This document shows positions 4,913 through 7,990 of a DNA stretch of 64,000 bases, piece after piece. Numbering within the stretch: the stretch's first letter is position 1; each line of letters starts with the position of its first letter. The DNA comes from Cellulomonas triticagri (GTDB lineage Bacteria > Actinomycetota > Actinomycetes > Actinomycetales > Cellulomonadaceae), in assembly GCF_003696205.1 (NCBI RefSeq), contig NZ_RFFI01000003.1:1-64000 (forward strand). The letters run 5' to 3'. The notes under the pieces were generated by a model. It saw only the letters and a program-made list of their open reading frames with translations, searched no databases and was not told where the DNA came from. The translations under genes and the position numbers were made by a program.

Positions 4913-5662
4913 TCAGAGGAAGCGCTGCCCCAGCGCGTCCGTGTCCGGCTGGAGCAGGGGAGCGGCCGAGCGGTCCAGCAGGAGGCTGCGCTCCAGCAGG
5001 TTGCCCTGGTAGAGGTCGAAGCCGAGACGCCGCCCGGCCTTGAGCTCCACGCTGGACTCCACGAACTCGGCGACCAGCAGCGCCCCGTGCGAGCGCGCCA
5101 GGTCGACGACGGGCTCGCCCTCGAGGTCGAGGTCGCGGGCGTCGATCTTCACGAAGTCGGCCTGGGGGAGCAGGGTGCGCTGGTCGGCGCGGGACACGAA
5201 CCCGGCCATCGCGACGCGGAAGCCCTGCTCGCGCAGGCGGCGGACACCGCGCAGGACGTCACCGTCGATGCGGGTGGTGCCGGGGACCTCGATCACGAGG
5301 CGGTCCGGGCGGGCCGGGAGGGCCAGCGCCCCGGTGAGGTAGGCGCGGGGGCAGCGGACGAACAGCCACCGCCCGTGGCCGACCTCATCCACGTCGGCGC
5401 GGCCGAACGTCGCGCGCAGGACGGCGGCGGTGGCGCGCTCGTGCTGCAGGTCGGACCAGGCGGCCGCGTCGGTGCTGGTCGCCCCCGGGGTCCGGAAGGC
5501 CAGCTCGTAGCCGAAGGGGTGCAGGCGCGGGGAGAAGATCCCCTGGCGACCCACGACCACCTGCTCGCGCGAGACGTGCCGCTCCCACTCCCGTCGCAGC
5601 TCGGTCGAGATCGCCGAGTCGACCTCGGCCGCCAGCTGCGCGTCGCCCTGTCCCCTGGTCAT
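4913..5662 (-). CDS. Degenerate EAL-domain protein, probably non-catalytic
   Basis: About 249 residues from ATG 5662; a GTG at 5698 would add 12. One EAL-type barrel is recognisable in order: FGYELAFR in place of the EALLR signature, LVIEVPG for the usual LEITE strand, VAMAGFVS where catalytic members have the DDFGTG loop, FVKIDARDL, LLVAEFVES and LYQGNLLERSL. Several metal ligands are gone: the Asp pair of DDFG is Ala-Gly and the first-shell Asn is replaced (FVRCPRAYL). The conserved Lys, the Glu of AEFVE and the Gln are kept. I infer a c-di-GMP-binding or protein-interaction role rather than phosphodiesterase activity. It is convergent with holA and divergent from the secreted-peptide gene. 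Confidence 0.75.
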   Translation of the reverse strand: MTRGQGDAQLAAEVDSAISTELRREWERHVSREQVVVGRQGIFSPRLHPFGYELAFRTPGATSTDAAAWSDLQHERATAAVLRATFGRADVDEVGHGRWLFVRCPRAYLTGALALPARPDRLVIEVPGTTRIDGDVLRGVRRLREQGFRVAMAGFVSRADQRTLLPQADFVKIDARDLDLEGEPVVDLARSHGALLVAEFVESSVELKAGRRLGFDLYQGNLLERSLLLDRSAAPLLQPDTDALGQRFL

Positions 5663-5745
5663 GTCGACTATGACACCACAGCGAAGCCGCCATGACACGA
5701 GCCCGATCGCGCCACCGGCGACGATGTCCGATTTTTCTGGGGCAG

Positions 5746-5766
5746 ACGGGTGGTGAATTCACCCGT
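5746..5766. promoter_or_regulatory. Palindrome between the EAL and peptide genes
   Basis: ACGGGT (5746-5751) and ACCCGT (5761-5766) form 6-bp inverted arms, and a perfect 12-bp palindrome GGTGAATTCACC (5752-5763) overlaps them. The site lies between divergent starts at 5662 and 5873 and could be an operator or activator site for either gene. No binding protein is assigned. Confidence 0.45.
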
Positions 5767-5833
5767 TCGGGCGGAGATCGTGCGGAAGTGCTCAACGGCT
5801 GGTGCGAAGCGCTCCGCGTCAGTCATCCTTTTC

Positions 5834-5861
5834 GTGACAGAGAGTCAATCCGCTGTGACAG
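5834..5861 (+). promoter_or_regulatory. GTGACAG direct repeats upstream of the peptide gene
   Basis: GTGACAG occurs at 5834-5840 and 5855-5861, exactly 21 bp apart, so both copies face the same side of the helix. The second copy abuts the AGGAG ribosome site (5860-5864) of the gene starting at 5873. Related GTGACA and GTCACAG sequences occur in front of the downstream HTH-TPR regulator (6099-6140), which suggests one protein binds both regions. Confidence 0.45.
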
Positions 5862-5872
5862 GAGACACCCCC

Positions 5873-6010
5873 ATGCGCACCACGATCAAGGCCCTCGCCA
5901 CCGCCGCCGTCGCTCTCACCCTGACCTTCGGCGCCTCGGGCGTCGCGAACGCTGCCGGCCTCGTCTCGATCCAGAGCGGCGCCACCGGCTGCTGCCGGAC
6001 CGCGGTCTGA
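5873..6010 (+). CDS. Small secreted prepeptide (45 residues), candidate signalling peptide
   Basis: The ATG at 5873 has a good ribosome site (AGGAG, 8-nt spacing) and encodes 45 residues. Residues 1-27 look like a Sec signal peptide: MRTTIK, a hydrophobic core (ALATAAVALTLTFG) and an ANA cleavage site. The predicted mature part is only 18 residues, AGLVSIQSGATGCCRTAV, with an adjacent Cys pair. Nothing suggests a lantibiotic or thiopeptide cluster, because no modification or export enzymes are nearby. A strong hairpin (6027-6069) ends the unit, and an HTH-TPR regulator follows on the same strand. Export with intracellular re-import, as for RRNPP propeptides, is inference. It could instead be a small cell-surface or antimicrobial peptide. 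Confidence 0.7.
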   Translation: MRTTIKALATAAVALTLTFGASGVANAAGLVSIQSGATGCCRTAV

Positions 6011-6026
6011 GCCCTCTCGGTGCCTC

Positions 6027-6069
6027 CCCGGCCCGCCCTGCTGGCTCTCGGTGACCAGGGCGGGTCGGG
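6027..6069 (+). terminator. Hairpin terminator after the peptide gene
   Basis: Positions 6027-6040 pair with 6056-6069 in a stem of about 14 bp with one G-T pair and no following T tract, as is usual in actinobacteria. It separates the peptide transcript from the regulator promoter. Confidence 0.65.
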
Positions 6070-6121
6070 ACGCCGAGGACCCCGGCGTGGCGGACGGGTG
6101 ACATGCTCGCCGTCACGAGCG

Positions 6122-6138
6122 GTCACAGGTACAGTGAC
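6122..6138 (+). promoter_or_regulatory. Operator-like inverted repeat over the regulator -10 box
   Basis: GTCAC (6122-6126) and GTGAC (6134-6138) are perfect inverted arms with a 7-nt spacer. They enclose a -10-like TACAGT at 6130-6135, which ends 7 nt before the ATG at 6143, so the transcript is probably leaderless and the repeat would block the promoter when bound. A second pair of arms in opposite order (GTGAC 6099-6103, GTCAC 6112-6116) lies just upstream. Autoregulation by the downstream HTH protein is the simplest reading. Confidence 0.5.
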
Positions 6139-6142
6139 ACCC

Positions 6143-7474
6143 ATGACGACCATTGCTGACCGCGTCCGCCAGGCGCGGTTGGCCGCTGGGCTCTCCCAGA
6201 CGGCCCTCGCCGGCGACGCCCTGTCGCCGAGCTACATCTCGCTGATCGAGTCCGGTCGGCGGGAGCCGACCGACGCCGCCCTCGGCGTCCTCGCCGAGCG
6301 GCTCGGCTCCACGGTCGAGTATCTCAAGCACGGCGACGAGGGTCCGGCAGAGGCGCGCGCGAAGCTTGCCCTGGACTACGCCCGCCTCGACCTCGTGTCG
6401 GGTGAGGCGTCCTCCGCCCGCGACCGCATCCTCGCGCTCGAGCTGGACTTCGTCACGCGCCAGGTGCGTGTCGAGGCACAGCTCGCCCTCGCGCAGGCGC
6501 ACGAGATGCTCGGCGACCTCGAGTCCGCCGTCGCCGTCCTCGAGCCGCTGCTCACGCAGGCGCGCGCGGAGTCCCACCACCTCGACGCCGCGGCCGCCGC
6601 CACGGCGCTGGTCGCGTCCTACGTCGAGTCCGGCGACCTCGGTCGGGCTATCGAGCTCGGCGACCGCCAGCTCGCGGAGCTCGAGGAGGCCGGTCTCACC
6701 GGCACCGACGAGCACCTGCGGCTCGGGTCGACGACGCTGTGGTCCTACGTGGAGCGCGGCGACCTCCTCTACGCGACGCACCGCGCCTCGGAGCTCATCC
6801 GGCAGGCCGAGTCCCTCGGCACGCCGCGCGGTCGCGGGTCCGTGTACTGGAACGCCGCGCTGGTGGCCGAGCAGCGCCACGACTACGCGCTCGCGAAGCG
6901 GTACACCGAGCGCGCGCTCGCCCTGCTGGGCGAGGGCGAGGTCAGCCGCGACATCCCGCGTCTGCGCCTCAACTACGCGTGGCTGCTGCTGCGCAGCGAC
7001 CCGGCGGAGCCCGTCGCGGCGCTGGAGCAGCTCGACCGTGCCGCCCCCGAGCTCGCCGTGTCCGGCTCCGAGGTGGAGATGGCGCGCCTCGACGTCGAGC
7101 GGTCCCGCGCGCACCTCATGCTCGGCGACCCCGTCGCCGCGGAGGGCTACGGCCGTGCCGCGCTCGACCGGCTCGGCGACGCCCCGCGGCTCGACGGCGC
7201 CGCCGCGCAGCTCGCGATCGGCGACGCGCTGCACTCGCGCGGCGAGACCGAGGCGGCGTCCCGCGCGTACCGCTGGGCTGCCGACATGCTCGGCATGATG
7301 TCCGCGTCGCGGCAGTCCGCGGCGGTGTGGCGCGAGCTCGGCGACCGGTTCCTCGGCAACGGGGACGTCACGGGTGCCGCGCAGGCGTTCGACCGGGCGC
7401 TGCGCGAGGCAGGGTTCCGGCCCGCGGTCCCCGCGGTGCTGTGGGAGGCGTGGAGCGTGGCCGCCCAGGACTGA
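6143..7474 (+). CDS. XRE-family HTH regulator with TPR domain
   Basis: A 443-residue protein. Residues 4-60 form an XRE/HTH_3 domain (ADRVRQARLAAGLSQTALAG, then SPSYISLIESGRREPTD). The rest, about 70-435, is helical with repeating TPR-like patterns such as AQAHEMLGDLESAVAVLEPLL, RAIELGDRQLAELEEAG and GDVTGAAQAFDRALREAGF. An N-terminal HTH with a C-terminal TPR array is the architecture of RRNPP peptide receptors (Rgg, NprR, PlcR, PrgX), and also of peptide-independent actinobacterial regulators. The adjacent upstream prepeptide gene and the operator-like repeats make a receptor-ligand pair plausible; binding is not shown by sequence. A hairpin at 7518-7551 ends the unit. Confidence 0.88.
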   Translation: MTTIADRVRQARLAAGLSQTALAGDALSPSYISLIESGRREPTDAALGVLAERLGSTVEYLKHGDEGPAEARAKLALDYARLDLVSGEASSARDRILALELDFVTRQVRVEAQLALAQAHEMLGDLESAVAVLEPLLTQARAESHHLDAAAAATALVASYVESGDLGRAIELGDRQLAELEEAGLTGTDEHLRLGSTTLWSYVERGDLLYATHRASELIRQAESLGTPRGRGSVYWNAALVAEQRHDYALAKRYTERALALLGEGEVSRDIPRLRLNYAWLLLRSDPAEPVAALEQLDRAAPELAVSGSEVEMARLDVERSRAHLMLGDPVAAEGYGRAALDRLGDAPRLDGAAAQLAIGDALHSRGETEAASRAYRWAADMLGMMSASRQSAAVWRELGDRFLGNGDVTGAAQAFDRALREAGFRPAVPAVLWEAWSVAAQD

Positions 7475-7724: not shown

Positions 7725-7793
7725 CGAGGTCGGGGGTTCCTGACGAGGTCGGTGGTTCGGTAGTACCTACCTCGTCAGGGACCCCCGACCTCG
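7725..7793. repeat. Large palindromic element, family member 1
   Basis: Arms 7725-7749 and 7769-7793 are 25 nt and inverted with one mismatch, around a 19-nt centre. The outer sequence CGAGGTCGGGGGTT matches the arms of two elements at 33082-33149 and 34119-34184 (CGAGGTCGAGGGTT). I read the three as one dispersed palindrome family, possibly REP-like. Confidence 0.7.
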
Positions 7794-7896
7794 GCGCGCT
7801 CCGCAGCGGAATCGCGCGTCCGTGCTCAGTCGGCGGGCTCAGACCGGCGGTGTCCGGCCTCGTCCGGACGCCTGCCTTCCCGCCGCGCGGCTCGTC

Positions 7897-7990
7897 CGCC
7901 TCCGCTCGCCGCCTCCGCTCGCCGCCTCCGCTCGCCCGCCTCCGCTCGCCCGCCTCCGCTCGCCCGCCTCCGCTCGCCGCCTGCGCTCCG
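7897..7990. repeat. Minisatellite with 13-14 bp unit, seven copies
   Basis: Seven tandem copies of CGCCTCCGCTCGC, some with an extra C, start near 7897, 7910, 7923, 7937, 7951, 7965 and 7978; the last copy is diverged. The run is strongly strand-asymmetric in pyrimidines. There is no spacer diversity, so it is not a CRISPR array. Confidence 0.85.

Follow-up and report, generated by a model that had tools for sequence, protein, structure and literature searches.

In Cellulomonas triticagri, the gene for a short peptide with a Sec-type signal and the neighbouring gene for an HTH-TPR protein probably form an autoregulated peptide–receptor switch, which works like RRNPP signalling and which controls an EAL-domain protein. 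The pairing recurs in many actinobacteria, where it is probably an undescribed peptide-signalling system; peptide–receptor signalling of the RRNPP sort is best known from, for example, Bacillus and Streptococcus. A first-pass annotation of the window (the whole 64-kb stretch of DNA that was analysed) had proposed such a pair, and this observation is right and larger than could be seen from the window alone.

The peptide gene lies at 5873–6010 on the + strand (ATG at 5873, stop codon at 6008–6010), with a Shine–Dalgarno sequence, AGGAG, at 5860–5864, 8 nt ahead of the ATG. Its translation, MRTTIKALATAAVALTLTFGASGVANAAGLVSIQSGATGCCRTAV, bears out the annotated prepeptide of 45 aa, in which a Sec-type signal of about residues 1–27 (MRTTIKALATAAVALTLTFGASGVANA) is followed, downstream of an ANA site, by a mature part of 18 aa (AGLVSIQSGATGCCRTAV) ending in SGATGCCRTAV; the signal of this and the other peptides was judged by hydropathy and A-x-A-like sites. 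A comparison of 13 close relatives (78 pairs) gave a dN/dS of 0.27 for the ORF overall, 0.17 for the signal, and 0.50 for the whole mature part. The most conserved portion of the mature peptide is its C-terminal core, SGATGCCR (codons at 5975–5998, + strand), which is unchanged in 13 of the 13 relatives with a dN of 0.000 and a dS of 0.50, so that only synonymous sites vary. By these rates, the ORF is under purifying selection across the close relatives, and sequence comparison shows the peptide gene to be genuine and maintained by selection, with its Sec-type signal and with a C-terminal core around Cys-Cys that does not vary.

The peptide gene stands directly upstream of the receptor gene, as annotated, with a gap of 132 nt. 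Within the family, the peptide was matched in 26 of 221 genomes, and it lies 90–164 nt upstream of the receptor gene in all 26. A strict rule (an ORF of 34–75 aa with an N-terminal basic residue, a hydrophobic 12-mer, a Shine–Dalgarno sequence, and CC in the last 12 aa) picks out one ORF in the whole window, namely the peptide gene itself, and no ORF either in 42 control loci (130 kb, 12 receptor-less loci included) or in the remaining 60.4 kb of the window, this control DNA of about 190 kb coming from Cellulomonas and a near genus only. Receptors with at least 56% identity have a strict ORF of the short exported type adjoining them in 91 of 93 cases, and the remaining two (loci L086 and L097) have an adjoining ORF under a relaxed rule. 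The first-pass annotation had made its reading depend on this co-occurrence with HTH-TPR orthologues and on a peptide C-terminus conserved across species, and both were found. Among distinct receptors, 123 of 129 have a strict peptide within 1.5 kb. A wider set of 212 non-redundant receptors takes in relatives on plasmids, in phage, and in other classes, and some of its loci have short flanks; here, a strict peptide lies within 1.5 kb of 158 receptors if each peptide is assigned to its nearest receptor and of 162 without this assignment. The latter count follows the receptor score: 121 of 128 at 450 bits or more, 38 of 58 at 300–450 bits, 0 of 6 at 200–300 bits, and 3 of 20 below 200 bits. Receptors without a strict peptide of their own number 54 of the 212, and just 3 of the 26 below 300 bits had one nearby. 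By these counts, the peptide goes with a single subfamily of HTH-TPR proteins; a class-level profile search (E ≤ 1e-40) found receptors in 75 of 394 genomes, the window genome included.

One simple explanation would be that an ordinary small ORF lies by chance beside an ordinary regulator, short ORFs being common in G+C-rich DNA. Its probability is negligible, and it was rejected on the pairing counts set against the control DNA (158 of 212 receptors versus none in 190 kb), on the receptor-less Cellulomonas genomes (a CC peptide beside the EAL gene in 0 of 12), and on the conserved motif of the peptide ORF and the selection acting on it.

Gene order shifts among the 158 receptors, and the pairing is kept: the peptide gene is upstream on the same strand in 93, divergent in 33, downstream on the same strand in 20, and downstream on the opposite strand in 7, and there are copies both divergent and downstream-opposite in 5. 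These positions bear on the possibility that the short ORF regulates the receptor gene in cis, as a leader peptide of the cysteine-codon attenuator type. Like such leader peptides in actinobacteria, the present ORF is short and has tandem Cys codons, and these adjacent codons come shortly ahead of a strong G+C-rich hairpin (6027–6069, + strand) and of the receptor gene. This hairpin between the two genes could be a terminator, without a T-run (the fold of 6011–6075 has −40.3 kcal/mol and a z of −3.36); a terminator scan did not list it and, over 5600–6300, gave one terminator-like site, at 5797–5824, upstream of the peptide gene. An attenuator would be in cis, upstream, and co-transcribed. In the window and its orthologues, the ORF does precede the receptor gene on the same strand, but outside the nearest relatives it is often divergent (33 of 158) or downstream (27 of 158), so a leader peptide acting in cis fails as an explanation. 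The ORF also differs from cysteine attenuators in having a Sec-type signal, a protein sequence conserved in signal and core, and trans arrangements. Moreover, the receptor gene seems to have its own promoter, since a TACAGT box at 6130–6135, 7 nt ahead of the receptor ATG, is by eye the presumed −10 of a leaderless promoter; a sigma-70 consensus scan of 5600–6300 gave no promoter-like site. The attenuator is thus highly improbable and was discarded.

The peptides of the family resemble one another in their C-terminal ends. In 170 distinct peptides of 38–61 aa, there are exactly two Cys, adjacent to one another, in 166, and the tail beyond CC is 0–6 residues long in 168. The residue preceding CC is Gly in 88 and Pro in 37, that following it is Lys in 67, Arg in 48, and a stop in 39, and an A-x-A-like site, which is a loose pattern, is present at residues 17–36 in 169. 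Seven family peptides were tested and had no Pfam or NCBIfam model above the cut-off, which holds for the window peptide as for six further ones. We are inclined, without strong confidence, to see here a class-wide actinobacterial pheromone family of peptides that are exported by Sec, have a vicinal Cys-Cys at or near their end, and are read by HTH-TPR receptors; this would be RRNPP-like intracellular signalling outside Firmicutes, in which the thiol pair may redox-gate the signal and, in Cellulomonas, the output would be an EAL-domain (c-di-GMP-type) protein.

Several more distant groups were seen. A second receptor group of about 40% identity, present in many Cellulomonas genomes (L120–L136, L157, L161), is accompanied by one to four peptides, encoded downstream, that carry an (S/A/Q)PCCK motif. 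At the loci of f38, one family within the class (L165–L171, L175–L187), the peptides found are divergent, about 100–120 nt from the receptor, and end exactly in CC-stop, as in ..SPGDFCC. In two order-level genomes, G359 and G294 (L147, L158, L150, L159), the receptor gene is present as two or three adjacent copies, some of which have CC peptides. A phylum-wide search gave a strict peptide at 0 of 19 receptors (17 beyond the class; L366 and L367 within it), and two loci from this search (L364, L365) have a shorter ORF that ends in CC or CCG. Among plasmid and phage relatives of the receptor, 17 records were matched and 7 examined (five from Streptomyces, one from Nonomuraea, and one phage), of which 2 (L371, L372) have CC ORFs in a scan without the Shine–Dalgarno requirement. 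A Streptomyces goshikiensis plasmid (L368, 4586–4801) encodes a hypothetical protein of 71 aa, WP_008741297.1, which ends in ..KDIPLCC and whose gene is just downstream of a receptor relative of about 36%. Phage and viral collections yielded one unannotated phage record and one weak viral match and, on that evidence, the family is not phage-borne.

The receptor gene (6143–7474, + strand) encodes a protein of 443 aa without Cys, in which an XRE HTH (residues 8–61) is combined with a TPR superhelix. Its nearest named relatives, at 94–95%, include those of Cellulomonas sp. IC4_254, C. hominis, and C. pakistanensis. Pfam gave HTH_3 (4.2e-10) and several TPR models, with TPR_2, TPR_12, and TPR_14 at or above the cut-offs and TPR_MalT and TPR_16 below them; among the Pfam and NCBIfam matches at E ≤ 1, there was no RRNPP-specific model. 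The structure model (pLDDT 91.9) consists of helix pairs throughout, and its best structural match is LGN (Z 26.5), with Rap 4gyo (Z 21.7 over 339 residues, rmsd 6.5) and NprR 5dbk (Z 20.7) among the next; TPR superhelices look alike in general. A profile of the receptor matched PlcR at 2e-8 across the HTH and the first TPRs, designed TPRs and generic TPR or HTH proteins scoring higher.

In a model of peptide, linker, and receptor in one chain (a natural in-frame read-through), the peptide had a pLDDT of about 26–46 and no confident placement. The conservation of the TPR groove is that of the other receptor positions (0.598 versus 0.598, p 0.50), though single groove-type positions such as R397, D401, D361, and R193 are conserved at 0.91–1.0. 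Given the low pLDDT of the peptide and the ordinary conservation of the groove, the binding of the peptide to the receptor does not gain computational support.

A palindrome, GTCA-N9-TGAC, recurs at three genes of the locus. One copy, GTCACAGGTACAGTGAC at 6122–6138, overlaps the TACAGT box of the receptor gene; a second, GTCATCCTTTTCGTGAC at 5822–5838, lies in the peptide promoter; and a third, GTCATGTCGACTATGAC at 5658–5674, lies across the start of a divergent EAL-domain gene (4913–5662, − strand), the predicted target. The EAL protein matches the C-terminal half of PF00563 (3.3e-12), and a DDFG-type motif is not apparent in it by eye, so it may bind c-di-GMP rather than cleave it. The exact palindrome is found at −21/−22 in the receptor promoters of 76 of 87 unique orthologues (mean of shuffles 0.22) and, mostly at −48 to −51, in the peptide promoters of 63 of 91 (mean of shuffles 0.60). 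The copy at the EAL gene is present in 69 of the 77 receptor-bearing loci with an EAL match in the fetched DNA, an exact copy being absent from the other 8. In 16 of 93 loci, the fetched DNA has no EAL match, and 14 of these belong to the 16 loci of genus g2 (Actinotalea and relatives). None of the 12 receptor-less Cellulomonas genomes has the palindrome at the EAL gene. On this distribution, GTCA-N9-TGAC goes together with the receptor, and each of the three genes (peptide, receptor, and EAL) has it at its start. In an EAL tree, the 12 receptor-less genomes form one clade, and loci L118 and L119 another, which means that about two independent losses, and not fourteen, are behind the link between operator and receptor.

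At L118 and L119, a receptor that has diverged to 47–50% stands beside the EAL gene without a strict peptide and without the operator, and it has apparently been freed of its peptide. Most loci of genus g2 (L097, L100–L102, L104–L108, L110, L112, L114) have a GTCA-N9-TGAC about 180–225 nt upstream of the peptide, which persists there though the EAL gene is mostly not found, and which perhaps marks another divergent target.

Beyond the orthologues, the palindrome occurs in 6 of 18 receptor promoters and 0 of 27 peptide upstream regions of the 40% paralogues and in 4 of 13 and 4 of 10, respectively, of the order-level relatives. The two remaining groups lack it altogether, with 0 of 20 and 0 of 28 for the receptor promoters and 0 of 20 and 0 of 16 for the peptide upstream regions. 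The f38 pairs (0 of 20) probably use another operator. Within the C. triticagri genome, a loose form of the palindrome has 37 sites compared with 3 for a reversed control, and three of the 37 are in this locus. A crude check of the context of palindrome sites (loci L293–L334) gave no convincing further target, with sites in L297, L300, and L303 near candidate starts. The regulon that we claim comprises the three local genes only; a wider one is neither claimed nor excluded.

The location of the palindromes is also relevant to an explanation in which the short exported protein is an antimicrobial or another secreted effector (or a surface or metal-binding peptide), regulated by the HTH-TPR protein in response to another signal and not sensed by it. 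A bacteriocin, too, would be expected to be exported and closely linked to a regulator; tandem copies of the peptide (two to four) are present at 14 of 212 receptors, mostly in the paralogous group, and the linked peptide–receptor model has no docking signal. We nevertheless consider an effector unlikely, since the palindrome marks the receptor's own gene and the EAL gene too, and since the mature part has just 18 aa with only two Cys. Moreover, by Pfam, the six neighbouring genes examined in the window include no immunity, modification, or peptide-export gene, save for a methyltransferase beyond rpsT (in the relatives, this check covers EAL and rpsT only).

In the peptide–receptor switch that we favour, the prepeptide would leave the cell by Sec, be cut after A-N-A, and be trimmed to a short Cys-Cys peptide. 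An Opp/Dpp-type ABC transporter, for which the genome has 12 SBP_bac_5 proteins, would re-import this peptide; once inside, it would bind to the TPR groove and alter DNA binding at three operators, the receptor being the putative GTCA-N9-TGAC-binding protein. One palindrome overlaps what is presumed to be the −10 box of the receptor gene, and the others are close to the two remaining gene starts, so the simplest and most likely logic is repression by the receptor that the peptide relieves. Such a release would create a positive feedback and would switch on the EAL-domain protein at high density; here, both the direction of the switch and c-di-GMP as the output are what we infer. The Cys pair would be oxidised outside the cell and reduced inside it, which could let it serve both as an address and as a redox gate.

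Another possibility is that the receptor senses the unexported or cytoplasmic prepeptide, in which case the pair would report Sec capacity or the internal thiol or redox state rather than cell density. The receptor and the prepeptide meet in the cytoplasm, which would make an import step unneeded, the invariant pair of neighbouring Cys lends itself to a redox or metal role, and palindromes lie near both genes. This possibility is distinctly unlikely given that purifying selection acts on the signal part (dN/dS 0.17) and that the N-terminal part of the mature peptide varies while its C-terminal core does not, which is the pattern of exported, trimmed pheromones.

The exported-peptide switch has its closest parallels in PlcR-PapR and NprR-NprX of Bacillus, with which it shares an XRE-type HTH plus a TPR array and an adjacent gene for a short exported propeptide and, in the case of PlcR, a profile match over the HTH and the first TPRs. 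In systems of the PapR and NprX type, the active part is at or near the C-terminus of the propeptide, and it would be placed likewise here. The Cellulomonas pair differs from these systems in being actinobacterial, in its invariant Cys-Cys and its palindrome GTCA-N9-TGAC, in a peptide gene that may be upstream, divergent, or downstream, in the EAL-domain neighbour as predicted target, and in a receptor with no RRNPP-specific model among its Pfam matches listed at E ≤ 1. The streptococcal ComRS/XIP system shares a doublet motif in a short C-terminal pheromone and an HTH-TPR reader (putative in our case). The doublet of ComS is WW; the present peptide has Cys-Cys instead of Trp-Trp and, in addition, a Sec-type signal.

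The first-pass annotation had assigned the pair the layout and receptor architecture of RRNPP systems. According to the accessible part of PMC10075063, these are detected by an adjacent gene for a propeptide of 10–100 aa with a Sec signal; such a gene adjoins the receptor here (signal by the hydropathy rule), and the receptor, at 443 aa with TPR repeats, falls within the RRNPP(A) range of about 250–500 aa. Size and neighbour are therefore as in RRNPP systems, membership by sequence is only a possibility, and the fair wording is that the pair works like RRNPP, without its being filed as a member. The large RRNPP survey in the same accessible text covered Firmicutes and viruses, and its introduction states that actinobacterial quorum signals are typically small molecules made by enzymes. 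Actinobacteria go unmentioned (by two word-stems) in the accessible text of PMC9765709, and that of PMC13220807 describes RRNPP for Gram-positive bacteria and Firmicutes and brings in Streptomyces only for gamma-butyrolactones. No actinobacterial RRNPP-like system was recognised in the open-access PMC literature searched, a partial body without preprints, in which the Cys-Cys peptide family appears to be undescribed. If the pair signals, a bacterial class with antibiotic producers among its members has a language of gene-encoded peptides, open to prediction from genome sequence, to inexpensive tests with synthetic peptides, and to use in gene switching; Cys-Cys would offer a simple way of finding more family members, and the conserved palindrome would be a ready reporter.

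The wider neighbourhood contains comEA- and holA-type genes upstream, with a comEA/comEC-like pair upstream of holA (the comEC-like gene by eye), and rpsT, the methyltransferase gene, an MDMPI-domain gene, and lepA downstream. A competence link, as might be expected by analogy with ComRS from the comEA and comEC-like genes, is not claimed; the neighbourhood looks simply conserved, with rpsT as a common neighbour in 64 of the 66 loci with enough DNA. Downstream of the receptor gene, at 7725–7795, there is a long, near-perfect inverted repeat, gaggtcgggggttcctgacgaggt...acctcgtcagggacccccgacctc, and the intergenic region before rpsT contains, at 7900–7990, head-to-tail copies of a unit like cctccgctcgcc.
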